DNA of 21,975 nt from positions 1 through 21,975 of the IMG/VR virus record IMGVR_UViG_3300034356_001749; one strand, 5' to 3'. Shown here in pieces: positions 2,806-16,855 of the stretch; within the stretch, counting starts at the first letter, position 1, and each line of letters opens with the position of its first letter. The position numbers were made by a program, and so were the translations under genes. This DNA is from a virus. The notes beneath the pieces are model-generated. The model was not told the origin of the DNA. It saw nothing but the letters and a program-made list of their open reading frames with translations, and made no database searches.

Positions 2806-3144
2806 TTAGGCATTAACAGCCATGCTTGCCACATTTGAGAAGTCAAATGTTGCAACAGCAGGTGCTTGTTCGCCTGCTTTGTGAATCATCTTGGTTTCAA
2901 TGACCTCACCTGTGGCTTGATTAACAGCCTTATAATCAGAAACTTGTAAATCAGCAGTAAGCTGAGTACCAATGGACTTAGCCAATAAGGTACGTGAAAG
3001 GGTTTCTGTACCTTTCATGAAACGCACATGGTAACGTTGGTTACCTTCTGCATCTTTTTCCTTGTTAGGAACTACCTCAATGCCTGTGGCATTTAGTAGT
3101 TGCTGAAAACTAACAATAGAACGGGTGTTTGAAAATGTTGCCAT
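2806..3144 (-). CDS. 112-aa soluble phage protein, unknown function
   Basis: MATFSNTRSIVSFQQLLNAT begins a soluble, probably beta-rich protein with alternating hydrophobic/polar segments. Examples are RYHVRFMKGTETLSRTLLAK (about 37-56) and a hydrophobic, alanine-rich C-terminus (ATFDFSNVASMAVNA). It contains no cysteine and no catalytic motif I recognise. It has its own AACAGCTC promoter at 3176-3197 and its own strong terminator at 2762-2798, so it is monocistronic. Its leader (about 30 nt) is longer than those of the sister cassettes, and its stop codon lies just outside the terminator hairpin. A nucleic-acid-binding or inhibitor role would be a guess. Confidence 0.75.
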   Translation of the reverse strand: MATFSNTRSIVSFQQLLNATGIEVVPNKEKDAEGNQRYHVRFMKGTETLSRTLLAKSIGTQLTADLQVSDYKAVNQATGEVIETKMIHKAGEQAPAVATFDFSNVASMAVNA

Positions 3145-3175: not shown

Positions 3176-3197
3176 TCAATATGGGTTAAGAGCTGTT
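3176..3197 (-). promoter_or_regulatory. early-type promoter, copy 1 (drives 2806-3144)
   Basis: AACAGCTC-TTAACCCATA-TTGA on the minus strand. It shares an extended upstream TTCGCAGCTTT block and the ACCCAT spacer with copy 2 at 3396-3417, so these two look like a duplicated pair. Confidence 0.75.
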
Positions 3198-3228
3198 TTC
3201 TAAAGCTGCGAACGAAGTGAGCCCTAAC

Positions 3229-3265
3229 AAAAAAAAGGTAAGACTCTGTGCACTAGAGCCTTACC
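3229..3265 (-). terminator. intrinsic terminator of the first small RNA
   Basis: The minus strand reads GGTAAGGCTCT-AGTGCAC-AGAGTCTTACC followed by eight T's. The 11-bp stem has one G-U wobble valid only in the minus-strand RNA. Confidence 0.9.
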
Positions 3266-3391
3266 CACCACACCTTTGCAGTCAGTGTGATTACCATTTC
3301 TTGTTCCTAGATGGTTATCTCTGAGGCTTAATCTTACGGTTCCGCTTTCCGCCTGCTTGTACTTCACAGGATAAATAGTAAGATATACGAA
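3229..3391 (-). ncRNA. candidate phage small RNA 1, about 160 nt
   Basis: The unit is bounded by an AACAGCTC promoter (3396-3417) and a strong terminator (3229-3265), with no convincing gene between them. The RNA can fold with a closing helix ATCTTAC/GTAAGAT (3378-3384 with 3331-3337). This encloses a CCTG/CAGG hairpin (3367-3370/3352-3355) and a short CGG/CCG stem. A CACAC/GTGTG hairpin (3285-3289/3269-3273) and the terminator stem follow. A 61-codon frame across it starts inside the promoter core and reads through the terminator, so I treat it as spurious. It sits among single-gene early cassettes, so it was probably made early. Function unknown. Confidence 0.6.
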
Positions 3392-3395
3392 TATA

Positions 3396-3417
3396 TCAAA
3401 ATGGGTCATGAGCTGTT
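3396..3417 (-). promoter_or_regulatory. early-type promoter, copy 2 (drives small RNA 1)
   Basis: AACAGCTC-ATGACCCATT-TTGA on the minus strand, with the same spacing as the other eight copies. It is preceded by TTCGCAGCTTTT, which is shared with copy 1 and may also form a small AAAGGC/GCTTTT hairpin. Confidence 0.75.
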
Positions 3418-3471
3418 ATTAAAAGCTGCGAAGCCTTTATATACTATATATAGACAATCCTAACACTACCC

Positions 3472-3487
3472 TTGATTATCAGGCAGT
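3472..3487. repeat. 16-bp repeat TTGATTATCAGGCAGT, copy 1
   Basis: An exact 16-mer that is also present at 3920-3935. It contains the palindrome TGATTATCA and can form an imperfect hairpin with the preceding ACTACCC. It lies in the short gap between the 3544-3852 terminator and the small-RNA promoter. Confidence 0.6.
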
Positions 3488-3530
3488 TACAAATTGTTGG
3501 TCTCATTTCTCTATATATAGTAGTAGAGAC

Positions 3531-3558
3531 AAAACAAAAGCTCTCAATTAAGAGAGCT
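3531..3558 (-). terminator. terminator overlapping the 3544-3852 stop codon
   Basis: The minus strand reads AGCTCTC-TTAATT-GAGAGCT then TTTGTTTTG. The TGA stop (3544-3546) lies across the loop and 3' arm of this hairpin. Confidence 0.85.
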
Positions 3559-3852
3559 CAAGTTGAATCCATTAGCAATACTGAAGTCCATTGGCTTTGG
3601 GAATCTTATTCTTCTAAACCCAACAGGCTTACCATTAAGAAACTTAAAGCCTTTCCATCTACCTGACTGAAAATCAACCTGTTTCACTTGTATAAGAGTA
3701 TCCTCATCAAGACTATTAAGGTCATTTTCACCAAAGATGTGGACTATTAAATCCTCTCCAGATGTAGTGCGGACAAGGCATTTAGCAAATGGTGTGTCGT
3801 TTAGGGCTAACTGAACATTAGATACAAACCCTACAAAATGTGCATATAACAT
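3544..3852 (-). CDS. 102-aa soluble phage protein, unknown function
   Basis: This small protein appears beta-rich: MLYAHFVGFVSNVQLALNDT, then segments such as TSGEDLIVHIFGENDL and VDFQSGRWKGFKFLNGKPVG, and ends FSIANGFNLSSLN. Basic/aromatic runs (GRWKGFKFLNGKPVGFRRIR, about 67-86) could bind nucleic acid, but no family is recognised. The frame extends upstream to a TTG at 3873. That TTG is the conserved TTGA of the promoter, so I take the ATG at 3852. It is monocistronic, with its own promoter (3870-3891) and terminator (3531-3558). Confidence 0.75.
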   Translation of the reverse strand: MLYAHFVGFVSNVQLALNDTPFAKCLVRTTSGEDLIVHIFGENDLNSLDEDTLIQVKQVDFQSGRWKGFKFLNGKPVGFRRIRFPKPMDFSIANGFNLSSLN

Positions 3853-3869
3853 ATAATAAGTTTTAAAAT

Positions 3870-3891
3870 TCAAGAGAAGTTATGAGCTGTT
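3870..3891 (-). promoter_or_regulatory. early-type promoter, copy 3 (drives 3544-3852)
   Basis: AACAGCTC-ATAACTTCTC-TTGA on the minus strand, ending 17 nt before the chosen ATG. Confidence 0.8.
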
Positions 3892-3919
3892 TTACTAAAA
3901 ATGCTCATTTTATAACTGC

Positions 3920-3935
3920 TTGATTATCAGGCAGT
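3920..3935. repeat. 16-bp repeat TTGATTATCAGGCAGT, copy 2
   Basis: An exact copy of 3472-3487. Here it is extended upstream by ACTGC, giving a hairpin ACTGC-TTGATTATCAG-GCAGT (3915-3935) between two early cassettes. It may be a secondary terminator or a protein-binding palindrome. Confidence 0.6.
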
Positions 3936-3969
3936 GAGTCTACTTGCTCCACAGGCTGGAGACAAAAGT

Positions 3970-3990
3970 AAAAAGGGGATATTACTCCCC
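3970..3990 (-). terminator. terminator containing the 3982-4203 stop codon
   Basis: The minus strand reads GGGGA-GTAATA-TCCCC then TTTTTACTTTTG. The TAA stop (3982-3984) lies in the loop. Confidence 0.85.
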
Positions 3991-4203
3991 TTGTACATAG
4001 TAAGCATCAGGTGCTTGAGCATATATTTCTTCAAGCTCATTAATTATTCTAATAAGCTCTTCAGTGCTAATATTATTTTTATAATCAACACTATACTCCA
4101 TATGACTTACTTCTTCATATTTTGTATCATCACTTATTAAAGCATTAATGCCATGGATAGCATTTAAAAGTTTTTCTTTTGTTTGGTTTAAAGTAAATTT
4201 CAT
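3982..4203 (-). CDS. 73-aa small helical protein, unknown function
   Basis: MKFTLNQTKEKLLNAIHGIN begins an acidic, mainly helical protein: two amphipathic helices (about 5-25 and 46-63), separated by a polar stretch (SDDTKYEEVSHMEYSVDYKN). It has no cysteine pairs or enzyme motif. Its own promoter (4219-4240) leaves a 15-nt leader, and its own terminator overlaps the stop codon. It is one of the chain of single-gene early cassettes. Function unknown; small acidic early phage proteins often bind host enzymes, but nothing here proves that. Confidence 0.7.
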   Translation of the reverse strand: MKFTLNQTKEKLLNAIHGINALISDDTKYEEVSHMEYSVDYKNNISTEELIRIINELEEIYAQAPDAYYVQGE

Positions 4204-4218
4204 AATATATAGTTTAAT

Positions 4219-4240
4219 TCAAAAATTGTTATGAGCTGTT
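4219..4240 (-). promoter_or_regulatory. early-type promoter, copy 4 (drives 3982-4203)
   Basis: AACAGCTC-ATAACAATTT-TTGA on the minus strand, directly abutting the T-rich tail of the upstream gene's terminator. Confidence 0.8.
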
Positions 4241-4265
4241 AAAAATATAAGGGAGTTAGACTCCC
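4241..4265 (-). terminator. terminator containing the 4256-4585 stop codon
   Basis: The minus strand reads GGGAG-TCTAA-CTCCC then TTATATTTTT. The TAA stop occupies the loop. The T-tract runs straight into promoter copy 4. Confidence 0.8.
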
Positions 4266-4585
4266 CTATATTGTGTGCTCAATCTGACATATGCTGTATC
4301 AAGCTTGTCACTGTCCACTTGGTCTTTGACATACTTAACTGCACTCAAGACAGCTGTGAGTTCTTCCCAAGTGAGTCTTACACCTATAAGTTCTTCTTTT
4401 TCCCACAATGTCTTGTATAGCTCTGTATTTGCTATTTCTTGTTGCAGAGAGTTTCTTATATCCATATAGGCCCATAGTCTACCAATATCAGATGCATCTA
4501 ATGAGTTCTTCTCACCTTCTAAATTGAGACACTTAATGTTATCACTAAGCATATCAATTACTCTTAATAATGTGTTTGTATCCAT
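4256..4585 (-). CDS. 109-aa helical protein, unknown function
   Basis: MDTNTLLRVIDMLSDNIKCL begins an all-helical, acidic protein. Predicted helices cover about residues 3-22, 31-59 (SDIGRLWAYMDIRNSLQQEI...) and 71-92 (TWEELTAVLSAVKYVKDQVD). It ends RLSTQYRGV. It has no membrane segment and no catalytic motif I recognise. It has its own promoter (4602-4623) with a 16-nt leader and its own terminator, with the stop codon in the hairpin loop. Function unknown. Confidence 0.75.
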   Translation of the reverse strand: MDTNTLLRVIDMLSDNIKCLNLEGEKNSLDASDIGRLWAYMDIRNSLQQEIANTELYKTLWEKEELIGVRLTWEELTAVLSAVKYVKDQVDSDKLDTAYVRLSTQYRGV

Positions 4586-4601
4586 AATGTATAGTTTTAA
4601 A

Positions 4602-4623
4602 TCAAGATGAGTTATGAGCTGTT
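4602..4623 (-). promoter_or_regulatory. early-type promoter, copy 5 (drives 4256-4585)
   Basis: AACAGCTC-ATAACTCATC-TTGA on the minus strand, abutting the preceding gene's terminator. Confidence 0.8.
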
Positions 4624-4624
4624 A

Positions 4625-4656
4625 GAAAAAATAAAAGAGGACCTTAATAGTCCTCT
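4625..4656 (-). terminator. terminator containing the 4644-4859 stop codon
   Basis: The minus strand reads AGAGGAC-TATTAAG-GTCCTCT then TTTATTTTTT. The TAA stop (4644-4646) is in the loop. Confidence 0.85.
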
Positions 4657-4859
4657 TCTAGAATTAAACCTACCACATTGTCTCTCTTTGCTTGAGAGAT
4701 AATGTCTTCTATGGCCTCATTAGTCCATCCACGTAATAGTGTAATGGCTCTTTCACTGAGACCTTCTCCAAACTTTAGGATCATGAGTCCGTCAAGTTCA
4801 TCAATAAGGTTTTGTTTTCTGCTATTAGTAGCAGAGCTGATAAAATAAATTGCAAGCAT
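4644..4859 (-). CDS. 71-aa small protein, unknown function
   Basis: MLAIYFISSATNSRKQNLID starts with a short hydrophobic strand (residues 1-9) and continues into helices (about 14-30, 35-60). The acidic C-terminus reads GLILEEDY. The hydrophobic start is too short for a signal peptide or membrane anchor. It has its own promoter (4879-4900) and stop-in-hairpin terminator. No family is recognised. Confidence 0.7.
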   Translation of the reverse strand: MLAIYFISSATNSRKQNLIDELDGLMILKFGEGLSERAITLLRGWTNEAIEDIISQAKRDNVVGLILEEDY

Positions 4860-4878
4860 GTGGCATAAATTAATTGGT

Positions 4879-4900
4879 TCAAGAAAGGTTATGAGCTGTT
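4879..4900 (-). promoter_or_regulatory. early-type promoter, copy 6 (drives 4644-4859)
   Basis: AACAGCTC-ATAACCTTTC-TTGA on the minus strand. The seven-T tail of the small-RNA terminator runs directly into it. Confidence 0.8.
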
Positions 4901-4927
4901 TAAAAAAACAGACTTAACGTATCTGTT
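4901..4927 (-). terminator. intrinsic terminator of the second small RNA
   Basis: The minus strand reads AACAGA-TACGTTAAG-TCTGTT followed by T's. The stem is 6 bp and the T-run continues to promoter copy 6. Confidence 0.75.
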
Positions 4928-5075
4928 GTGAGGAACTCCCCCTTCCGTCAGAAGGTTTGGCAACGGTTAGCTTAAAGACACTAACAAACGGTGTTATTAA
5001 AGACATATCTTCCCCAAGCTCTCTGAGCTCAGCCATTGGTTGTATTACAACCACCCACCCAACCGAGAAGATATG
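4901..5075 (-). ncRNA. candidate phage small RNA 2, about 170 nt
   Basis: A full promoter-terminator unit (promoter 5076-5097, terminator 4901-4927) with no credible ORF. It folds strongly: a perfect 11-bp helix GACATATCTTC/GAAGATATGTC (5067-5077 with 5002-5012) lies at the very 5' end, so its outermost bases may fall just upstream of the real start. The helix encloses GGTTGT-AAT-ACAACC (5038-5052) and AGCTC-AGA-GAGCT (5017-5029). It is followed by GTTAG/CTAAC (4966-4970/4981-4985), CCTTC-TGACG-GAAGG (4941-4955) and the terminator stem. A G-rich run (GGTTGGGTGGGTGG) is exposed in the first domain. The layout resembles small RNA 1: a 5' closing helix around two hairpins, then 3' hairpins. Function unknown. 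Confidence 0.65.
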
Positions 5076-5097
5076 TCAAAATAGTTTATGAGCTGTT
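5076..5097 (-). promoter_or_regulatory. early-type promoter, copy 7 (drives small RNA 2)
   Basis: AACAGCTC-ATAAACTATT-TTGA on the minus strand; the long 5' helix of the RNA begins at the final bases of this element. Confidence 0.75.
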
Positions 5098-5100
5098 ATA

Positions 5101-5132
5101 TATAGAGAAAGATAACCCATTACAGGTTATCT
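5101..5132 (-). terminator. terminator containing the 5120-5344 stop codon
   Basis: The minus strand reads AGATAACC-TGTAATG-GGTTATCT then TTCTCTATATATA. The 8-bp stem is perfect and the TAA stop (5120-5122) is in the loop. Confidence 0.8.
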
Positions 5133-5344
5133 CTATCTAATACAGCTGGAATGCTATCCATAGGACACTCCATTAGATGCCCATCAATGCTCTCTATTAC
5201 TACAGAGTTAGGTCTTAACTCTAAGTAATATTCTGTTTTGACATGTTCTGCCTTGGCTCTAATAGAACCCATGACATATCCTGTAAAGACGCCAAGGGCA
5301 AATATCAGGACAACTAATAATGAAAGTTTCTTTTCTTGATTCAT
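5120..5344 (-). CDS. 74-aa N-terminally anchored membrane protein
   Basis: A short basic N-terminus (MNQEKK) precedes one hydrophobic segment (LSLLVVLIFALGVFTGYVMG, residues 7-26). A soluble, probably exposed domain of about 48 residues follows (VKTEYYLELRPNSVVIESID... DSIPAVLDRDNL). Two cysteine-free beta strands seem likely, apart from a single C in MECPMD. It could be a signal-anchor protein or, less likely, secreted; no cleavage site is obvious. An early phage membrane protein could serve superinfection exclusion, but that is inference. It has its own promoter (5363-5384) and stop-in-hairpin terminator. Confidence 0.75.
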   Translation of the reverse strand: MNQEKKLSLLVVLIFALGVFTGYVMGSIRAKAEHVKTEYYLELRPNSVVIESIDGHLMECPMDSIPAVLDRDNL

Positions 5345-5362
5345 AATTGATAGATTAAATAT

Positions 5363-5384
5363 TCAATAAAGGTGATGAGCTGTT
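5363..5384 (-). promoter_or_regulatory. early-type promoter, copy 8 (drives 5120-5344)
   Basis: AACAGCTC-ATCACCTTTA-TTGA on the minus strand, abutting the upstream terminator. Confidence 0.8.
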
Positions 5385-5417
5385 AGAGAAAATGAGAAGC
5401 CCTAGAAGGGCAACTCA
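5385..5417 (-). terminator. terminator overlapping the 5402-5602 stop codon
   Basis: The minus strand reads TGAG-TT-GCCC-TTCTA-GGGC-TT-CTCA then TTTTCTCT. The TAG stop (5402-5404) lies in the loop and the last stem base. Confidence 0.75.
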
Positions 5418-5602
5418 TCTCCATCATGCTGTAGCACATCAGTCACGTGGGCCTTATGCATACAATCTTCACACATTGTATGAAAGTATACAGCACCTTG
5501 CCGTTGAGCAACTTGGATACCATCTTCATAGATAGGTATCAATTCAAAATCATAGGCAACTGGTTGACCGCAGCTGCAGTCTGGATGCAAAACTTTTTCC
5601 AT
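5402..5602 (-). CDS. 66-aa putative zinc-binding protein
   Basis: MEKVLHPDCSCGQPVAYDFE carries CxC at residues 9/11. CEDC follows at 44-47 with histidines at 41, 49 and 52. Paired CxC and CxxC 32 residues apart suggest a zinc-ribbon-like fold, which in phage early proteins often serves nucleic-acid or protein binding; the role here is unknown. It is the first gene of the minus-strand arm, next to the strand switch. Its promoter (5626-5647) is the most divergent copy (TGGA for TTGA). Start context ACCATGGAA; leader about 23 nt. Confidence 0.75.
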   Translation of the reverse strand: MEKVLHPDCSCGQPVAYDFELIPIYEDGIQVAQRQGAVYFHTMCEDCMHKAHVTDVLQHDGDELPF

Positions 5603-5625
5603 GGTAAATGTTTTAGGTAAATAAT

Positions 5626-5647
5626 TCCAAATAGGTGGTGAGCTGTT
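5626..5647 (-). promoter_or_regulatory. early-type promoter, copy 9 (drives 5402-5602)
   Basis: AACAGCTC-ACCACCTATT-TGGA on the minus strand. It is the rightmost copy and has one change in the downstream box. Confidence 0.7.
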
Positions 5648-5840: not shown

Positions 5841-5864
5841 TTGTATAGCAGTAACCAACACATT

Positions 5865-6497
5865 ATGGCATATATAGAACATAATTTTTTTCCGCTGAAA
5901 GTATTTGTTAGGAATGAGTACATGTACCAGCATAAGAAGGGACACGGAGAATTCACCCCGGGGGTTATTGTGTCAGTAAGATGCATGCCAGGACAAGCTG
6001 CGTTATTTCAAGTACTCTTAGAGAATGGCGTACTTAGAGATAAGTTACCAAGCCATGCTTTACTTACTGAACCAGAGACTCCGGATCCAGATCTACCTTT
6101 TCACTTCTTACAGATATGGAATTGTTTCTCTTATAACTTTACTTTACTACACTTGTCTTACGTATATGATACCAGAGTAGAAGTATACATGAAGGATCAC
6201 AAGTTCTACCCGGGTAGTTACTATGCTACCATTAACTGGGGAGCTAGTGACCCCAATACAGATCTATCATTAGCAGAAGATCCACTAGAGCATAAAAGCC
6301 ATCATATCATTTTACTTGATAACGGACAGATTGCTCTGCAACCTAATAACCGGATCAAGTGGTCTGAGCCAAGCTTTGTTACTAAACCATTCCCAGAGAG
6401 ACCTGACTATCTAGTCAATACAGATTATTATAATTGTGAAGGATTTGATAAGTGGCACACAGAAGATTCAGATAGGATGTTTTATGATAATGAATAA
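5865..6497 (+). CDS. conserved Bacteroidetes-phage protein of unknown function
   Basis: This 210-aa soluble protein contains FFPLKVFVRNEYMYQHKKGH near its start, GEFTPGVIVSVRCMPGQAAL, then the blocks LQIWNCFSYNFTLLHLSY and LEHKSHHIILLDNGQIALQP. The order PLKV-x-VR-x-EY, HKKGHGEFTPG, LQIW-x-CFSYN, SDPN, EHKSxxIIxLDNGQ, QPNNR is, from memory, a signature of an uncharacterised family widespread in aquatic and gut Bacteroidetes phages. No catalytic motif is evident. A TTG 24 bases upstream is in frame, but the ATG at 5865 gives the expected N-terminus. It is the first gene of the plus-strand arm. Confidence 0.85.
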   Translation: MAYIEHNFFPLKVFVRNEYMYQHKKGHGEFTPGVIVSVRCMPGQAALFQVLLENGVLRDKLPSHALLTEPETPDPDLPFHFLQIWNCFSYNFTLLHLSYVYDTRVEVYMKDHKFYPGSYYATINWGASDPNTDLSLAEDPLEHKSHHIILLDNGQIALQPNNRIKWSEPSFVTKPFPERPDYLVNTDYYNCEGFDKWHTEDSDRMFYDNE

Positions 6498-8678: not shown

Positions 8679-8984
8679 ATGGCGGAATTTAATAAACAAG
8701 GTACTCTAGCTGTAACAGGAACAGTACTCCATACCGGAGTAGAAGGACAATCTTTTAATAGTAAGGTTGCTCTAATGCGTTTCAATAATCCACTAGCTTA
8801 TACCGTTACATTACAGAGATATGAGGCTAGTACAGCAAGTACAGTTACTATATATACATTAACGTTATCAGCTGGTGATACACTTACTGATAATTTTAAT
8901 TATTCATTAGAGCCTGGCGATCAGTTAATTGCCACATCAAATATTACAGGGACAGCATATTATATATACGGAATTGATTACTGA
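8679..8984 (+). CDS. 101-aa small beta-rich structural protein
   Basis: MAEFNKQGTLAVTGTVLHTG starts a Ser/Thr-rich, all-beta protein with no cysteine or charged clusters. The middle reads MRFNNPLAYTVTLQRYEAST and the C-terminus TAYYIYGIDY. Such composition is typical of small virion decoration or fibre-associated proteins. It overlaps the giant fibre gene (TGATG), so the two are translationally coupled and probably assembled together. No family name can be given. Confidence 0.75.
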   Translation: MAEFNKQGTLAVTGTVLHTGVEGQSFNSKVALMRFNNPLAYTVTLQRYEASTASTVTIYTLTLSAGDTLTDNFNYSLEPGDQLIATSNITGTAYYIYGIDY

Positions 8985-11900
8985 TGCAGTTAACAGATAA
9001 AGATGGAAATGTATTTGGTGTAGGTGGATTAGAGATAACTACATCTACTGGTAAACCAAAGATTCCGGTAATAAATACAGATATAACTATTGGTACTACA
9101 ACTATAGTAGGTGGAGTAGCTGGTAGATTACTATTTGATGATGCTGGTGTAGTAGGTGAGACTAATGGTGTACATTGGGATAAGGTTAATAGTAGAATGG
9201 GATTTGGCACAGTCACTCCCGCTTATGGAATTTCACATATAGGAAATATTGGCGTAGCAGCTATATTTTCACAACGTGATTTTGGTTTTGGAGCATATTC
9301 TCAAATAACTCAAAGAGCAAGTTATATTGCATATACTACAGATGGTACAACAGGTTTAGCAATAGGAGCAGCTTCAGGTGCTGCTAGAATACAAGGATTT
9401 AATGGATTACCTGCTACATCTGACAAACCTATATTCCTTCAATCATTAGGTGGTAATGTTGGTATTGGTACTACTACTGATGCAGGATACAAACTAGATG
9501 TAAATGGTACTACAAGGGTAAAAGGAACTGGTACAACATCTGCCACTACAGCATTTACAGTAACAAATAGTGCTGCTACATACAATTCTTTGATTATTAG
9601 AGATGATGGTACATTTGTTTTTGGGAATCCGAATAATGGAGTAACTTATTTATCAGCAGCACCTAACGGAAACATTGTAGCAAATTATTTTAACGCAACT
9701 CTTGATTTAGGAGCAGGTAGAAAAGTAACATCTGTTCAGTATTTTTCTTCAGGTTCAATCACAGCGGCTTCAGCACTTGCACAAGGAGTATTCTTCAATA
9801 ACACACTCGTAGCAGCAGCCAACAATGATGTCCTTGTAGGATTAGATATAGCACCTACTTTTACTAATGGTGCATTTACAGGTCTTGAAAATATACATAT
9901 TAGGAGTATAAGTTCTGCAAATGCTACAGTTGTAAAAAATATTTTATTAAAAAACACAGGTACAGGTAATGGTTCGGGTGTTTCAATAGGATTTAACAAT
10001 CTTAATGCAAACAATTTATCACACGCTTTTATTAAAAGTTATTATGTTATACCAAGTGGGATGGCTATGTCATTTGGAACGGGTGGTGGTAGTTCTTTGA
10101 CTTCAGAAGGTACAACCGCTCTTGTATTAAATGCAGACCAAACCGCCAATTTTACGGCAAGAGTAATTGCAAATTCAGGAGGTTTTCAAGCAACAGGGAC
10201 AACTACTAATCTATTGATGTCGGATAATGGAACTCCTATAATAACACGAAATGGCTCAACAGGTATTCAATTCCTTAAAGATGCATATTGGCAAACCTTT
10301 TCAATCTTTACAAACAATACCGAAAATTTAAGAGTAGCCTCCACAGGAAACGTATTAATTAATACTACTACAGATGCAGGTTTTAAGTTAGATGTAAATG
10401 GTACTGCAAGGATACAGGGTAATACTACATTAACTGGTACTTTAACAATGGGTAATGGAAGATTTAGTTATTCTGCAAATCCAAATGATTGGTTTACTAT
10501 TTCAGGTAACCAAGGTCTAATACTAAATCAAGTTAATGGTAATAATGGAAGTATAGTGTTAGGAGCTTCTAATAGTGCAAATTTTACAGTAGCACTTACT
10601 AATACAACTAAATATGGGGTATCAATTTCAAGACCAGTAACACCTATTGCAGGATCAACCAATTTAAATTACAATAGTCTTGAAATTGATAATGTTATTG
10701 ACTATACAAATGCAACTAATTCAATAGTAAGAGGATTATATATTCATCCAACATTGACTTCTGTTACAGACTTTAGAGCTATTGAAACTACAGTAGGTAA
10801 TGTGTTATTTGGTACTACTTCTGGCAATGTAGGAATAGGAACTACTAATCCTCTATATAACCTTGAAGTAGTTAGTTCAACAGGATATGCAGGTATAGGA
10901 ATAAGATCAGCACAAAATAATAATGCTGAGTTAAGCTTTCAAAATGCTAGTTATCCAACTCCTAGATGGACAATCAGGGCTTCTGCTGCAGCGGATGGAT
11001 CTTCAGGAAATTTAGTTTTTCAAAGAAATGCTTCTACATTTCCAATGACTATAACATCTGGAGATAACGTACTTATAGGCACAAGCATAGACTCTAGTTA
11101 TAAGCTAGATGTAAATGGTACAGTTAGAATTACAGATAATTTGTTTTTAGCAAGTACAAAAGGACTTTACTTTACAACAACGGCATTAGGTATTTTAGGA
11201 AATAGTGGTATAGGTACAATTAGTTTTTTAACAAATTCTATCAGTAGATTAAGTATTGATAATAGTGGAAATATAAATGCTATAAATTCTCCAACTGCTG
11301 CATTTTCAAATATATTTATAACAGGAAGTAATATTGAATTTAGAAATGGTATTCATTATTTTAGTTGGGAAAATAACGGAAATTTATTTCAGATTAAAAA
11401 TATAACTAATGCTAATACTATTCCATTTGCAATATTTAAAGCAACAAACAACATAGGCATCAACACCACCACAGACGCAGGATTTAGATTAGATGTTAAT
11501 GGTAATACCCGTTCAAGTAGATTTTATGCAACTGATGGAATTACATTAGCAAGAATTTCATTTGAAGGATTTAACAATCAAGTAGGGATAGACTATAATT
11601 CAACATCAGGATTATTTAAATTTTTTGCATCAGGAAATAATTTTTTAAGTGCAGGTTGGAATTTAGATACAATTATTGCTCCCGTTAGAAATACAGTTGA
11701 TAATATTGGAGATGTAGTTATACAAGGTGGAGGAAGTGAAAGAGTAAGATTTAAAGCTAATGGTAACGTAGGTATTGGAACAACTACTCCAAGTTATAAA
11801 CTACATACAGTTGGATCAGCAGGATTTGACAATGGAGCAAGTGGGGATGCTATTACTATTTTAAACTCAGGATACATACAATCAAGTTTAATAAGATTTA

Positions 11901-12544
11901 GAGGTTTTGCTACTCAATTTGTTATACAAGACAATTCATACAATATTAAATTTGCAATATCTACATCAGGTAGTTTTTCTTATTTTAATACGGGAGGTAA
12001 TGTAGGTATTAATACCACAACAGATTCGGGTTATACATTAAATGTAAATGGAACAGGATACTTTAATGGTAATGTAAAAGTTAATGGAGCTATACAAGCT
12101 TCAACACCTACAGCTAGTTCTTATATATGTCACATAGGACTAACAGCTGACCAAGTGCTAGTTTCAGGAGCTGATGCTGTATTAGATTTTGTAGACATTG
12201 CAGATACTAATAACTGGTATGACCCAACTACTAAGAGATTTTTACCAAATGTTGCCGGATACTATCATATAGATTTCTCACTATGGTTTGAACCATCTCC
12301 AGTAAGTACAGGACAGTACAATATCCAAGTAAGAAAGAACGGAACAACAGTAATGATCATACAGCAACCTACTATAAATAATGGCACAGGACAATCATTA
12401 ATGAGTTCTAAGCTAGTTTATTTTAACGGGACAACAGATTATATAGATTTCACAGCTTATCAATCTACAGGAAGTAATAGAAACATTTGGAAAGGTACAG
12501 ATAGCTCCGGAACATATGCTACTATACATTTATTAGCGGTATAA
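8984..12544 (+). CDS. 1186-aa tail fibre with C1q-like tip
   Basis: A large receptor-binding fibre. The N-terminus contains GRLLFDDAG...HWDKVNSRMGFGT, a junction module shared with the 14302 and 15701 genes. The shaft carries repeated units of the type GNVGIGTTTDAGYKLDVNGT at about residues 155, 455, 614, 694, 823, 926 and 1004, interspersed with variable beta domains. A RGLYIHPTLTSVTDFRAIET cassette precedes residue 614. The C-terminal 140 residues (about 1045-1186: NWYDPTTKRFLPNVAGYYHI ... FSLWFEP ... NIQVRKNGTTV) match a C1q/TNF-like trimeric jelly roll, a common fibre tip. No S74 chaperone motif (SDxRLKxNI) is present, so trimerisation probably depends on the tip. It lacks the MLNNITNFFNLI anchor of the following fibres. 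Codon style changes along the gene (for example near 11455), which suggests cassette exchange. Confidence 0.9.
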   Translation: MQLTDKDGNVFGVGGLEITTSTGKPKIPVINTDITIGTTTIVGGVAGRLLFDDAGVVGETNGVHWDKVNSRMGFGTVTPAYGISHIGNIGVAAIFSQRDFGFGAYSQITQRASYIAYTTDGTTGLAIGAASGAARIQGFNGLPATSDKPIFLQSLGGNVGIGTTTDAGYKLDVNGTTRVKGTGTTSATTAFTVTNSAATYNSLIIRDDGTFVFGNPNNGVTYLSAAPNGNIVANYFNATLDLGAGRKVTSVQYFSSGSITAASALAQGVFFNNTLVAAANNDVLVGLDIAPTFTNGAFTGLENIHIRSISSANATVVKNILLKNTGTGNGSGVSIGFNNLNANNLSHAFIKSYYVIPSGMAMSFGTGGGSSLTSEGTTALVLNADQTANFTARVIANSGGFQATGTTTNLLMSDNGTPIITRNGSTGIQFLKDAYWQTFSIFTNNTENLRVASTGNVLINTTTDAGFKLDVNGTARIQGNTTLTGTLTMGNGRFSYSANPNDWFTISGNQGLILNQVNGNNGSIVLGASNSANFTVALTNTTKYGVSISRPVTPIAGSTNLNYNSLEIDNVIDYTNATNSIVRGLYIHPTLTSVTDFRAIETTVGNVLFGTTSGNVGIGTTNPLYNLEVVSSTGYAGIGIRSAQNNNAELSFQNASYPTPRWTIRASAAADGSSGNLVFQRNASTFPMTITSGDNVLIGTSIDSSYKLDVNGTVRITDNLFLASTKGLYFTTTALGILGNSGIGTISFLTNSISRLSIDNSGNINAINSPTAAFSNIFITGSNIEFRNGIHYFSWENNGNLFQIKNITNANTIPFAIFKATNNIGINTTTDAGFRLDVNGNTRSSRFYATDGITLARISFEGFNNQVGIDYNSTSGLFKFFASGNNFLSAGWNLDTIIAPVRNTVDNIGDVVIQGGGSERVRFKANGNVGIGTTTPSYKLHTVGSAGFDNGASGDAITILNSGYIQSSLIRFRGFATQFVIQDNSYNIKFAISTSGSFSYFNTGGNVGINTTTDSGYTLNVNGTGYFNGNVKVNGAIQASTPTASSYICHIGLTADQVLVSGADAVLDFVDIADTNNWYDPTTKRFLPNVAGYYHIDFSLWFEPSPVSTGQYNIQVRKNGTTVMIIQQPTINNGTGQSLMSSKLVYFNGTTDYIDFTAYQSTGSNRNIWKGTDSSGTYATIHLLAV
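10376..10407 (+). repeat. 32-bp exact repeat between fibre genes, copy 1
   Basis: A 32-base stretch beginning GCAGGTTTTAAGTTAGATGT and ending AATGGTACTGC is identical at 13110-13141 in the next fibre gene. It encodes AGFKLDVNGTA. Identity at synonymous sites points to recent duplication or recombination. Confidence 0.8.
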
Positions 12545-12566
12545 TTTCTAGGATTTTACAATTATT

Positions 12567-12583
12567 CTTATTATATTATATAG
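12567..12583 (+). promoter_or_regulatory. late-type AT element before 12597
   Basis: CTTATTATATTATATAG lies 13 nt before the ATG. It is similar to the other TATATTATA elements of the plus arm but less exact at the 5' half. Confidence 0.4.
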
Positions 12584-12596
12584 TAAGAATGTACCT

Positions 12597-14282
12597 ATGT
12601 TAAATAACATTACTAACTTTTTCAATCTGATAAGGACTGGAATGGTTAAATCACAATTGGAATCATCTGACTTATTACCTGTTGGTACTAGAGATAGTGC
12701 ATATGGTGGAAGTTATAAGCCAACAATGGTTAAGTATTCTGATCTAGCTGCTCAGATTTTAGCCGGAGTTCCTCCCCTTACAATAGGTATAACTCCTATT
12801 GCATCAGGTACTGCAGGTAAATTATTATATGAAGGTGCCGGAAATGTATTGAATGAATCACCTGTTTTTAATATTGACCCGTTAACAGGATTTCTTGGAG
12901 TAAATACAACTACTCCTCAGTTTGCTATTGACATGCAATTTAGTACATTAGGATTCTATTCAGATCCTACTTATAATGCATATTTTGGATTAAATAACGG
13001 GGGCCTTTACTTAAGTTCACATACAAGATTTGTATTTAATACATCATTAGCAAATAGCGCCCTTACAATAGAACAAAGTGGTAATATACTTATTAATACA
13101 GGTTTTGACGCAGGTTTTAAGTTAGATGTAAATGGTACTGCGAGGTTCACGGGACAATTCTCATCGGGTGCAAATATAAACTTTCAAATACGTCAAAATT
13201 CGGGAAATCCAAACTTTCAAGTAAGAGGGGACGGATATGTTCAATTTAATAACTACACTCCTTTATCGGGTGGCACAATGAACGTTCTTGACGGAAGCAG
13301 AATATCTATGTTTGGTGGTGGTCCATTATCAGGTAACATTAACCAATTTTCAATGAGTCACCTGTTCCAAACAAATGATAGTTCTCATACTTATACAGGC
13401 GTTCTCATATCTACAACCATCAACCAAACCGGTGGAGCAAGCGGCATTACAAGAGGTCTTTACGTTAATCCAACTTTAACGGCAGCGGCAGACTTCAGAG
13501 CAATAGAAACAACTGCAGGCAATGTTATTTTCAACGGAGGCAACGTAGGTATTGGGACGAGTAGTCCTGCTTATGTGTTAGATGTGGTTGGTGGTTTTAG
13601 AATAGGCTCATCAACTATTAAGTTAGGAATGGGTGAAAGCGGAGGTAACTCCGTGTTTGTGGGTAGCTTAACAAATCAACCTTTAAAATTCCTTGTAAAC
13701 ACGAATGAATATGCAAGAATAGCCACCACAGGCAACGTCCTAATCAACACCACCGGAGACTCAGGTTTCCGCTTAGATGTTAATGGCACGGCAAGGGTGC
13801 AGGGTTTGATAACAGGAACAGCCGGTATAACAATTTCAGGAAGTTCAAGTTTTACGTCAGGGTATTTAGGTATTGCTTCAACAGGCTCGGGTGGTATTTA
13901 TGGTCTTACTGCAAATCAGCCTTTATATATTTGGAATCGTCAAACATCAACAGGAAATGGAATAGTTATAGACGATTTTAATGGTGTTGGTGCAAATAGT
14001 ATTAGTTTAAATTTACTAAATATATCAGGTTCTTATAATACGTCAGGAACTTGTGTACATAATACATTAATGATAAGTCGTGCAATAAATATGCCTTTAG
14101 GAAATCAAACTGTTCGAGGATTTTATTATAATCCGACTTTAACTAACACAACAGGATTAGTTGCTCACTTTGCCTTCCACTCAACAAGTGGACGAGTGAG
14201 ATTTGAAGGACTCCCTACTTCATCTGCAGGACTTTCATCAGGAGACATTTGGAATGATGGTGGAATAGTTAAAATAGTTTAA
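12597..14282 (+). CDS. 561-aa tail fibre, anchor-family member 1
   Basis: The N-terminal anchor MLNNITNFFNLIRTGMVKSQ...DLLPVGTRD...YKPTMVKYSDL (1-50) is shared with the 14302, 15701 and 17898 genes and distantly with 17420. It presumably docks the fibre on the virion. The shaft modules are LGVNTTTPQFAID (about 98), NILINTGFDAGFKLDVNGTA (162), GLYVNPTLTAAADFRAIETT (286), GNVGIGTSSPAYVLDVVGGF (315) and NVLINTTGDSGFRLDVNGTA (379). The end (GLPTSSAGLSSGDIWNDGGI plus VKIV) is a common phage-fibre C-terminus. Segments around 13130-13800 use markedly more C/G-ending codons than the flanks. Receptor specificity cannot be read. Confidence 0.88.
   Translation: MLNNITNFFNLIRTGMVKSQLESSDLLPVGTRDSAYGGSYKPTMVKYSDLAAQILAGVPPLTIGITPIASGTAGKLLYEGAGNVLNESPVFNIDPLTGFLGVNTTTPQFAIDMQFSTLGFYSDPTYNAYFGLNNGGLYLSSHTRFVFNTSLANSALTIEQSGNILINTGFDAGFKLDVNGTARFTGQFSSGANINFQIRQNSGNPNFQVRGDGYVQFNNYTPLSGGTMNVLDGSRISMFGGGPLSGNINQFSMSHLFQTNDSSHTYTGVLISTTINQTGGASGITRGLYVNPTLTAAADFRAIETTAGNVIFNGGNVGIGTSSPAYVLDVVGGFRIGSSTIKLGMGESGGNSVFVGSLTNQPLKFLVNTNEYARIATTGNVLINTTGDSGFRLDVNGTARVQGLITGTAGITISGSSSFTSGYLGIASTGSGGIYGLTANQPLYIWNRQTSTGNGIVIDDFNGVGANSISLNLLNISGSYNTSGTCVHNTLMISRAINMPLGNQTVRGFYYNPTLTNTTGLVAHFAFHSTSGRVRFEGLPTSSAGLSSGDIWNDGGIVKIV
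13110..13141 (+). repeat. 32-bp exact repeat between fibre genes, copy 2
   Basis: Identical to 10376-10407; the sequence context diverges immediately on both sides (TTGAC before, GAGGTTCAC after). Confidence 0.8.
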
Positions 14283-14301
14283 GCATAAGAAACAATACAA
14301 T

Positions 14302-15690
14302 ATGTTAAACAATATCACAAACTTCTTCAATCTAATTAAAACCGGAAAGGTTAAGACTCAATTAGATGGCACAGATCTTCTACCAATAGGTACAAGGGAT
14401 AACCGTTTTACTGGACAGTATCAACCTACTATGATCAAATATTCTGATCTAGTAGCAGGAATGATTGGAGGATCTAACGGGCAAGTATTGTTTAAAGACA
14501 ATGGAATTGCAAATGGTGCATCTAATCTATATTGGGATAAAGTAAATGAAAGATTGGGTATTGGCACGAGTACGCCTGCATTTGCATTAGATGCTTTAGC
14601 ACCTCAATATGGTGGTTTTAGATTTATGGCTTCTGACGCTACTTTTTTAAGGTTAGATACCACAACAACTAATTTCCAAATTAGTCAGTCAAATACTCAA
14701 ACAACTTTAACAACAAGTAATTATGGTCCGCTTTATTTCATAAATAACGGAGCTGCTTCAATAAGACTTTCTCTTTTTGCTAATGGCAACTTTGGCATAA
14801 ACACAACAACCGATGCAGGTTTCCGCTTAGACGTTAACGGAACTGCTAGGGTGCAGGGGAATACTACTTTTTTAGGTAGTATAGCGGGTAGTAATGCCGG
14901 TCGTTTTGTTATTGCAGCACAGAATTTTGCGGTAAATATAACTTCTAACAACCCTATGAATGGGGAAGGAAGTTTAATAACAACAGGTGAAATTACAACT
15001 ACAGATAACCAAACTAAAAATGTCATTAATGTAAACAATGCAGTAACTTCAACTTCTGCAAGTTTTAATACGTTGAATGGTTTTGCGTTTACCTCAACTA
15101 TAAATCAAACTCTTGGAACAATAAGAGGCTTATTTATTGCGCCAACCATAACTGCTTCAACTAACTTTAGAGCAATTGAGACTACACGAGGCAATGTCTT
15201 GTTTGGTTCAACAAGCGGCAACGTCCTAATAGGTACCACCACAGACTCAGGGTTTAAACTTGATGTAAATGGTACTGCTAGGGTGGTAAATACACTCTCA
15301 GTAAATACGGGGAATGTATCGGGTCAAGGTATTCAAATGGGGAGTGACTCAAATATTGGTATCTTCAACAATGGTGGTGTTATGCAACTAAGGCAGTATT
15401 CAAATTCATTTGAATTAGCAGGAGGCGGAACTACTGTATTTTTACGCACTGACGGTAATCGTATAAACACAATAGCTAACTATGGAATAGCATTAGGAAC
15501 ACTCAATGTAACAACTGCAAGTGCTTCTGCTATTTTAGAGGCATACTCCACAACAAAAGGCTTCCTACCCCCACGAATGACTACAACACAAAAGAATGCC
15601 ATTGCAACACCTGCTGCGGGACTAATGATATATGACACAGACTTAAACAGACCTTGCTTCTTTAACGGGACATCTTGGATAACATTATAA
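14302..15690 (+). CDS. 462-aa tail fibre, anchor-family member 2
   Basis: The anchor MLNNITNFFNLIKTGKVKTQ...LLPIGTRD...YQPTMIKYSDLV (1-50) is followed by the GQVLFKDNG...YWDKVNERLGIGTSTPA junction (about 60-93). Shaft repeats NFGINTTTDAGFRLDVNGTA (about 162) and NVLIGTTTDSGFKLDVNGTA (about 307) flank a RGLFIAPTITASTNFRAIET cassette (about 274). The tip (about 415-462: ASAILEAYSTTKGFLPPRMT ... GLMIYDTDLNRPCFFNGTSW) is a conserved adhesin end-module, shared with 15701 and frequent in Bacteroidetes surface proteins. It lies 19 nt after the previous gene with no visible promoter, so it is probably co-transcribed. Confidence 0.88.
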   Translation: MLNNITNFFNLIKTGKVKTQLDGTDLLPIGTRDNRFTGQYQPTMIKYSDLVAGMIGGSNGQVLFKDNGIANGASNLYWDKVNERLGIGTSTPAFALDALAPQYGGFRFMASDATFLRLDTTTTNFQISQSNTQTTLTTSNYGPLYFINNGAASIRLSLFANGNFGINTTTDAGFRLDVNGTARVQGNTTFLGSIAGSNAGRFVIAAQNFAVNITSNNPMNGEGSLITTGEITTTDNQTKNVINVNNAVTSTSASFNTLNGFAFTSTINQTLGTIRGLFIAPTITASTNFRAIETTRGNVLFGSTSGNVLIGTTTDSGFKLDVNGTARVVNTLSVNTGNVSGQGIQMGSDSNIGIFNNGGVMQLRQYSNSFELAGGGTTVFLRTDGNRINTIANYGIALGTLNVTTASASAILEAYSTTKGFLPPRMTTTQKNAIATPAAGLMIYDTDLNRPCFFNGTSWITL

Positions 15691-15700
15691 TACATAGACA

Positions 15701-16855
15701 ATGTTAAATAACATAACAAACTTCTTTAACTTAATTTCTACTAAAAAAGTAAAGACACAGTTAGATCCTACTGACCTTTTAGCAATTGGTACTAAAGATC
15801 CTAGATTCTCAGGTAACTATCAGCCTACACTTATTGAGTATTCTAATTTTGTATCCGGATTAGTTGGAGGTTCAAATGGTCAAGTACTATTCAATGACAA
15901 TGATACCATTAGTGGTGCTGCTAACTTTTACTGGGATAAGATAAACCAAAGAGTAGGAATAGGTACAAGTACACCTGCACATCCTTTAGATGTAAGAGGT
16001 GTTAATGAAATAATCAAAATTACTGCAACAGGTGGCGGTGCTACCATTAAGATGCAGAATTCTTTTGGTTCTACTTGGAATGTTGGTACAACAGGAAATG
16101 ATTTTTATTGGTTATATAATGGTATAAATACATTTATGACCATTAAGAATAATGGTAATGTTCTTATTGATACCACAACAGATTCTGGCTATAAACTTGA
16201 CGTTAACGGAACTGCGAGGGTGCAGGGGAATGCAACGGTTCAATCGTTGTTAGTGCCAACTACTAATCTTTACGATATTGGTACTTTAGGCGTAAGATTT
16301 AGAGACGGTTATTTCAAAGGAATCTTGCTTGCAACTGAAATGTATGCGGAGCAATTTAGATTTGCAGCTACAAATTATAAGATTCTAAATGTTGGAGGAA
16401 CTCAAATAGCACAATGGTTTGGAACAGGTAACTTATTAATTCAAAACGGAGGAACGTTTACAGACGCAGGCTTTAGACTTGACGTGAATGGTACTGCGAG
16501 GGTGGTAACAAGCATATTAGTAGGTGCAGGTTCGGGTACGGGAACAGTTCAAACGGGAGTTTGTAGAGCAACTTACTTTAATAGTTATGCTAATAACTTT
16601 ACAATATTTGAAACTAACAACTCTACGGGAAATGCTAAATTTTATCAAGGTGTTTCAGTGGGTACAAGTTCAGACCCCGTTGCTTCGGCACAAGTTGAAA
16701 TAGTAAGCACAACACAAGGTTTCTTACCTCCACGAATGACTTCTGCTGAAAGAACTGCAATATTAACACCAGCAGTAGGACTCATGGTATATCAAACAGA
16801 CGCTACGGAAGGACTATATATTTATAAATCCACAGGATGGGCTTTGAATTCTTAA
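15701..16855 (+). CDS. 384-aa tail fibre, anchor-family member 3
   Basis: The anchor MLNNITNFFNLISTKKVKTQ...LLAIGTKDPRFSGNYQPTLI (1-45) is followed by the junction GQVLFNDND...YWDKINQRVGIGTSTPAH (about 61-93). Repeats are NVLIDTTTDSGYKLDVNGTA (about 152) and FTDAGFRLDVNGTARVV (about 253). The tip TTQGFLPPRMTSAERTAILT...GLMVYQTD (about 336-384) matches the end of the 14302 fibre. It is the shortest of the three long anchor-family fibres, with fewer shaft cassettes. It starts 10 nt after the previous stop. It presumably forms a trimeric side fibre. Confidence 0.88.
   Translation: MLNNITNFFNLISTKKVKTQLDPTDLLAIGTKDPRFSGNYQPTLIEYSNFVSGLVGGSNGQVLFNDNDTISGAANFYWDKINQRVGIGTSTPAHPLDVRGVNEIIKITATGGGATIKMQNSFGSTWNVGTTGNDFYWLYNGINTFMTIKNNGNVLIDTTTDSGYKLDVNGTARVQGNATVQSLLVPTTNLYDIGTLGVRFRDGYFKGILLATEMYAEQFRFAATNYKILNVGGTQIAQWFGTGNLLIQNGGTFTDAGFRLDVNGTARVVTSILVGAGSGTGTVQTGVCRATYFNSYANNFTIFETNNSTGNAKFYQGVSVGTSSDPVASAQVEIVSTTQGFLPPRMTSAERTAILTPAVGLMVYQTDATEGLYIYKSTGWALNS

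Follow-up and report, generated by a model that had tools for sequence, protein, structure and literature searches.

Putative early promoter arrays in distant crAss-like phages and their concerted replacement between relatives

The window analysed here, a virus record of 21,975 bases, carries a 22-bp element, AACAGCTC-N10-TTGA, in nine copies on its minus strand. The reading of this element as a phage-specific early promoter is well supported, and a host promoter, an operator or a repeat arisen by chance is disfavoured. A fuller account, in which the element is a (pre-)early promoter of crAss-like phages, starts transcription at the G of TTGA, is read by a giant virion RNA polymerase with a DFDxD motif and co-evolves with this enzyme, is in our judgment probable. 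The surprising and unusual part of the result is the concerted, lineage-specific replacement of the promoter, of which more than a dozen variants were found among relatives, several of them closely related to each other. No viruses of the human gut are more abundant than the crAss-like phages, a characteristic of which is a giant injected RNA polymerase. Their temporal classes and their virion polymerase have been described before (PMC8375218, PMC10136315, PMC10172136), and early transcription has been attributed to this polymerase (PMC8375218, PMC10136315). Our literature search, which did not include the main structural paper, found no promoter described for a crAss-type virion RNA polymerase, and the arrays supply explicit candidates with a predicted start site.

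The 22-bp element and its predicted start site

Eight exact copies of the element are located at 3176, 3396, 3870, 4219, 4602, 4879, 5076 and 5363, and a ninth copy at 5626 has one mismatch, TGGA for TTGA. A first-pass annotation of the window had listed these nine minus-strand copies, and both its coordinates and its description of the spacer as mostly ATAACnnnTn were borne out. Its term "invariant" fits eight of the nine copies but not the TGGA copy, and in the arrays of relatives about one or two copies each carry CTGA or TGGA. The copies, numbered in the direction of their units, are:

Promoter 1: 5626..5647, minus strand, AACAGCTCACCACCTATTTGGA; predicted +1 is the G at 5627
Promoter 2: 5363..5384, minus strand, AACAGCTCATCACCTTTATTGA; predicted +1 at 5364
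Promoter 3: 5076..5097, minus strand, AACAGCTCATAAACTATTTTGA; predicted +1 at 5077
Promoter 4: 4879..4900, minus strand, AACAGCTCATAACCTTTCTTGA; predicted +1 at 4880
Promoter 5: 4602..4623, minus strand, AACAGCTCATAACTCATCTTGA; predicted +1 at 4603
Promoter 6: 4219..4240, minus strand, AACAGCTCATAACAATTTTTGA; predicted +1 at 4220
Promoter 7: 3870..3891, minus strand, AACAGCTCATAACTTCTCTTGA; predicted +1 at 3871
Promoter 8: 3396..3417, minus strand, AACAGCTCATGACCCATTTTGA; predicted +1 at 3397
Promoter 9: 3176..3197, minus strand, AACAGCTCTTAACCCATATTGA; predicted +1 at 3177

With up to two mismatches allowed, the pattern had 10 matches in the window, against a mean of 2.0 (maximum 5) in shuffled sequence, and the tenth match, at 16543 on the plus strand with two mismatches, has the appearance of a chance hit. 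In a weight-matrix scan of the window all nine copies scored at least 28.7 bits, and no further site reached 14 bits. The motif score of the array was 253, compared to a maximum of 73 in dinucleotide shuffles, which were used in place of reverse-complement or reversed controls because the latter contain the mirrored motif and were uninformative.

Transcription probably starts at the G of TTGA, because the terminal stems of two RNA units begin at or next to this G and because its column is conserved as a purine. In the window, the RNA-like unit at 5002–5077 is closed by a 13-bp terminal stem, the 5' strand of which starts at the G of TTGA. In relatives, a second RNA family, of the form GATATAA-AAGGAATG...TTATATC-TTTTT, begins at this position where the promoter is of type A, B or C, and within one base of it where the promoter is of type I. 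Among 159 sites from many genomes, the +1 column held a purine in 148 (93%) and the +2 column an A in 129 (81%), as opposed to 23–58% purine in the columns nearby. With +1 at this position the element covers about -20 to +2, and it is best read, as far as sequence comparison can tell, as one contiguous promoter. The suggestion of the first-pass annotation that TnTTGA could stand in for part of a host -7 box was rejected, since in other variants the box is gone and nothing but RA persists at the start; TTGA is more plausibly the start site itself. The second RNA family, GATATAAyAAGGAATGTTTCC...GGAAACACTTGTTATATC-TTTT, is conserved at L010:9874-9946, L039:2822-2919, L043:1959-2054 and in L166; its 5' and 3' ends are fully paired, and the closing stem continues into the T-run.

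The position of the RNA ends also bears on the question whether the element acts at the RNA level, as a translation signal, a processing site or a common leader. Its copies do lie close to start codons: the ATG follows the predicted +1 by 17–33 nt, with a short AT-rich leader in between, and the earlier statement that 15–31 nt separate TTGA from the start codon holds when AUG starts are used (3852 for the copy at 3870; 4859 for the copy at 4879). However, the element also stands before RNAs without open reading frames (ORFs), as had been noticed for the copies at 5076 and 3396, whose units lack a convincing ORF, and the conservation within a genome sits in the upstream 13 nt and not in the leader. 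The G of TTGA is moreover where the stems of the RNAs start, which would place most of the element outside the stable RNA, and we give an RNA-level function very little credence.

Relatives of the window and their promoter variants

No close relative of the window was found among deposited phages; in IMG/VR there are contigs that share its array and the genes next to it. A helicase downstream of the array in one of them (L020) provides a link to contigs of up to 126 kb, and the array-linked helicase has distant matches to crAss001, DAC15, phi14:2 and Flavobacterium phages. The relatives are crAss-like phages of 73–120 kb, with opposed arms in contigs of 112–122 kb. The type B relative G021 (117,768 bp) combines crAss-like opposed arms with giant ORFs, and its capsid protein, which is less than 29% identical to that of any isolate, has distant crAss matches including csAssE-Sib and cr7_1. 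By these sequence comparisons the array-bearing relatives are assigned to the crAss-like phages (order Crassvirales), as a distant branch. The deposited isolate whose capsid protein comes closest (28.5% identity over 99%) is Leptolyngbya phage Lbo-JY46 (PP438436.1), which was recorded from a cyanobacterium.

The exact motif of the window was absent from 30 related contigs, although orthologous genes were present, which looked at first like evidence against conservation and led to the discovery of variant motifs. Variants were sought in 80 loci, in the region upstream of the divergent gene that flanks the array, and in genomes recruited by their polymerase. Variant left halves across the relatives include AACATCTT, TACAACTT, GCCGCTT, ACTGTGT and TACTTCTT. 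In L039, L041 and L048, AACATCTT opens every unit and AACATCTTwTTAC nearly all of them; the units of L043 and L046 open with TACAACTyATTAC and those of L044 with TGCCGCTTTTAAC. Motif search returned further variants, among them ACTGTGTTTTAC, TACTTCTTTCTAC, TACAGCTTTTTAC, TATAACTTTATAA, ACAACTTTTATTG and ACCATTTTATAAC. Nine arrays were compared with dinucleotide shuffles, and every one of the nine scored well above these. Most types share a core of roughly CTy-N3-AC, with RA 7 nt later, and vary in the bases to the left of it. Motif discovery gave no convincing array in G060, G066, G073, G099 and G059. Matches to a 17-base pattern in L009, L012, L016 and L018 were single copies without an array and were taken as unrelated, and motif discovery on unmasked tail-fibre genes yielded coding repeats, after which these genomes were masked and the search was rerun.

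The array of each genome consists of a single promoter type, orthologous units stand behind different types in different genomes, and mixed arrays were not seen. This uniformity also speaks to the possibility that the repeats are mainly recombination cassettes, exchanged through homology of the 22-bp element, and serve as promoters only secondarily. Unit content and order indeed differ between close relatives, and near-identical 22-mers flank the modules, yet imports would bring in foreign promoter types. The uniform arrays speak for selection on the promoter, shuffling being no more than a side effect, and an origin as recombination cassettes is scarcely probable. The replacement of all copies together between close relatives suggests that the promoter evolves together with the injected RNA polymerase.

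Whole-genome scans of five genomes of 73–120 kb (G021, G028, G042, G043 and G044), with strong sites defined as those of at least 18 bits, located strong sites only within one array of 1.7–3.5 kb on one strand. G021 has 12 strong sites at 95.9–98.8 kb on one strand and elsewhere one weak site (15 bits); G028, G043 and G044 show the same confinement, as does G042 apart from weak sites. The first-pass annotation had proposed a phage-specific early promoter and regarded a motif occurring equally inside genes as evidence to the contrary; the confinement of the sites to one array on one strand lends support to its proposal. From the genome layout and from crAss001 (PMC8375218) we infer that the array genes are early. 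Many copies of a highly conserved short repeat in one region might also be operators or iteron-like repeats for replication or packaging. Against this stand the orientation of all copies with their units at a narrow distance to the start codon or RNA 5' end, the copy-to-copy spacing of about 200–475 bp, which follows gene length, the RA start-site signature at a fixed place and the terminators that precede most copies. A function of this kind is therefore highly improbable.

A giant virion RNA polymerase as the candidate reader

All five long array-bearing contigs examined encode a protein of 3,438–5,259 amino acids with DFDxD or DYDGD, the motif in the giant ORF of G021 being DFDVD. A profile of the five proteins matched the phi14:2 virion RNA polymerase (PDB 6VR4, E=1.1e-30) with DFDxD aligned; a direct PDB search with two of the giant ORFs returned nothing. 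Two large cargo ORFs adjoin the giant polymerase ORF in the relatives, and the closest known systems are phi14:2 gp66 and crAss001 gp47/gp49/gp50. A crAss-type virion RNA polymerase, which the first-pass annotation had named as the possible reader and suggested looking for, is thus encoded in five near-complete relatives, whereas the window is a fragment that does not reach this region. This polymerase, presumably carried in the capsid and ejected with the DNA, is most likely the reader of the element; its gene is present in the relatives, and its action on the element is presumed.

Compared to G021, polymerase ORFs of genomes with other promoter types are 30–38% identical over the aligned length, while the capsid protein is 89–94%, the terminase 79–84% and the divergent flanking gene 90–97% identical. 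In G021, G028, G042, G043 and G044, divergence is far higher in the polymerase and both cargo ORFs than in the genes for capsid, terminase and replication. Terminase (TerL), helicase and the catalytic region of the polymerase were then compared over 15–17 genomes. Different promoters were found in G095/G076 (TerL 92%, helicase 94%, polymerase core 47% identical), G062/G072 (96%, 91% and 51%) and G021/G028 (helicase 92%, polymerase 51%). The same promoter type was found in G044/G076 (TerL 93%, helicase 85%, polymerase 96%) and the same promoter in G072/G069 (75%, 75% and 71%). Co-evolution of promoter and polymerase is likely on this evidence; recognition of the DNA may rest with a part outside the compared region or with a cargo protein.

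Several observations weigh against this account. The polymerases of G069 and G098 are only 63% identical and their promoters are still similar, while G082, G097 and G071 have different promoters with polymerase cores that are 74–79% alike. Over 15 genomes the correlation between promoter and polymerase distance was modest (r=0.35; partial Mantel r=0.33, p=0.014), and it fell to a non-significant 0.07 without the three DFDGD/DYDGD genomes; a 17-genome Mantel run that included the mis-seeded G079 (one site) was not used. A correlation of the promoter with the helicase was seen too (r=0.38; 0.36 once the polymerase is taken into account). A polymerase gene is missing from the window, and none is linked on any contig to the exact type-A array; the type-A-like G083 with its DFDVD polymerase comes closest. 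Unlike in the relatives of the window, a comparable array was not detected in the early region of cultured phi14:2, and for phi14:2, Fpv20 and Lbo-JY46 the array scores stayed inside the range of the shuffles or exceeded it slightly. For crAss001 the score was 106 (shuffle maximum 79), from an A-rich motif that bears no likeness to the 22-bp element. Finally, the two cargo ORFs are as divergent as the polymerase beside them (22–44% identity), and one of their products could be the specificity factor.

Such a cargo protein, injected with the DNA and co-evolving with the element, might also redirect the host RNA polymerase, and phage factors that act in this way are well known, for example AsiA/MotA of T4, named in PMC5312081. 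However, no sigma-70 region 2 or 4 domains were found in the five relatives or in the window, and the element has neither a -35/-10 nor a -33/-7 layout. The Bacteroidota host promoter TTTG-N17-21-TAnnTTTG was not recovered and TAnnTTTG was not enriched, in agreement with the first-pass annotation, which had already set the element apart from that promoter; with the other variants, the -7-box likeness of TnTTGA is gone as well. In addition, early transcription of phi14:2 is reported to be rifampicin-resistant and carried out by the virion polymerase (PMC10136315). We consider a redirected host polymerase unlikely.

Returning to the virion polymerase as the reader, the left half of the promoter and the specificity of the polymerase would evolve as a matched pair, in which case all copies within a genome are expected to change together. 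We tentatively propose, as a possibility falling somewhat short of an even chance, that the polymerase cassette is matched to the promoter array, the two constituting an exchangeable specificity system, and that close crAss-like phages hold mutually incompatible promoter "allotypes". Each genome would keep its allotype uniform over 5–16 sites, and diversification of the allotypes would far outpace that of the remaining genome, perhaps driven by avoidance of cross-transcription in mixed infection or of host factors aimed at the polymerase. Replacement of a promoter in concert at a dozen sites between phages with approximately 95% identical terminases raises the question of what drives it, and these naturally paired variants of polymerase and promoter could help to locate the DNA-reading part of the enzyme. 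A first candidate is an N-terminal stretch around residues 540-720 of the G072 polymerase, which type F possesses and type G lacks.

The promoters of T7, T3 and SP6 are contiguous elements of about 20 bp that end at the start site and consist of a shared core and a variable specificity part. The element described here would likewise be contiguous, about 20 bp long and end at its predicted start site, with a common core and a variable part, but the polymerase encoded is of the crAss-type two-barrel kind; a T7-type polymerase was not detected in a search run without a positive control. N4 (PMC4496689), AR9/phiKZ (PMC5312081) and P23-45 (PMC10770324) are known examples of phages whose virion polymerases use promoters of their own. 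In N4, early promoters are read by an injected polymerase, as presumed here, but they are hairpins (PMC4496689), whereas any 5-bp hairpin was present in only 36 of 175 sites, which gives no conserved inverted repeat of the N4 type. The promoters for the virion and non-virion polymerases of the phiKZ-related phage AR9 are likewise short, conserved and phage-specific, and their start site is fixed, as predicted here, namely AAATATATATTAT-N6-G(+1) for early and AACA-N6-TA/G for late genes (PMC5312081). Length and spacing differ: AACA occurs here in types A and B only, at -20 to -17, compared to about 11 nt upstream in AR9, and most variants have no AACA, so that the AR9-type late promoter does not describe them. 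In relatives of Thermus phage P23-45, a conserved motif before pre-early genes follows the virion two-barrel polymerase gp96 (PMC10770324); there, presence or absence of a similar, shared motif tracks the enzyme, in contrast to the more than a dozen variants here.

Units behind the promoters and neighbouring regions

The nine promoter copies would drive nine short units, coding or RNA, and most of these, being closed by an intrinsic terminator, would each be expressed on its own. Ten intrinsic terminators were found in the window, compared to 1.9 expected from shuffles, and seven of them lie at minus-strand unit ends. Most units close with a hairpin and a T-run, often overlapping the stop codon. 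With its own promoter and terminator for most units, the region is made up of promoter-gene-terminator units that stand independently of each other; they are listed here with the flanking gene:

Unit 1: 5402..5602, minus strand, ORF of 66 amino acids; stem-loop/T-rich terminator 5411-5399 overlapping the stop codon
Unit 2: 5120..5344, minus strand, ORF of 74 amino acids, one membrane helix by eye; hairpin GATAACC..GGTTATC 5131-5111 over the stop codon
RNA-like unit behind promoter 3: 5002..5077, minus strand, closed by the 13-bp terminal stem; -34.6 kcal/mol, z -6.0
Conserved RNA TTTGTTAGTGTCTTTAA...CGGAAGGGGGAGTTCC...: 4902..4998, minus strand, ends with hairpin and T-run; no obvious own promoter in the window
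Unit 4: 4644..4859, minus strand, ORF of 71 amino acids; terminator 4660-4632 over the stop codon
Unit 5: 4256..4585, minus strand, ORF of 109 amino acids; terminator 4267-4250 over the stop codon
Unit 6: 3982..4203, minus strand, ORF of 73 amino acids; terminator 3992-3973 over the stop codon
Unit 7: 3544..3852, minus strand, ORF of 102 amino acids, ATG at 3852; terminator 3559-3538
RNA-like unit behind promoter 8: 3236..3397, minus strand, no convincing ORF; 12-bp terminator hairpin 3266-3236, then T-run
Unit 9: 2806..3144, minus strand, ORF of 112 amino acids, 78–82% identical in type-A relatives L013, L015 and L020; terminator 2798-2773
Divergent gene flanking the array: 5841..6497, plus strand, PHROG 3704, "ferredoxin"/PurM-like

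Orthologues of unit 1 are present in L010, L015, L019, L039 and L048, each behind its own promoter type. The longer TTG start at 3873 that the ORF tool gave for unit 7 falls inside promoter 7. Searches of PHROG and Pfam with the proteins of the array units gave no informative match.

The RNA at 4902–4998 has its own promoter in L043 and L019. Its RNA-like stretch TTTGTTAGTGTCTTTAAACTAACCGTTGCCAAACCTTCTGACGGAAGGGGGAGTTCCTCACAACAGATACGTTAAGTCTG is strongly conserved between the window (minus strand), L043:2092-2182 and L019 near 7620, with differing promoter types, and a scan of the window for Rfam families gave no match for it. Another conserved intergenic stretch, CTTCCCAAGGGTGAGCAG...GAGTGCAGAGGGG, occurs without an array promoter at 1780–2110 of the window (minus strand), where it precedes a 302-amino-acid gene, and at L044:3560-4110 and L046:5160-5540; it is possibly another structured RNA. 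The PHROG 3704 gene at 5841–6497 is found elsewhere mostly in cyanophages and pelagiphages and is very conserved in the crAss-like phages described here. From 8984 to 16855 on the plus strand, the window encodes one large tail-fibre-like protein after another; GIGTTTDAGYKLDVNGTARVQG-like motifs recur in them, and several of the proteins have the common N-terminus MLNNITNFFNLI.

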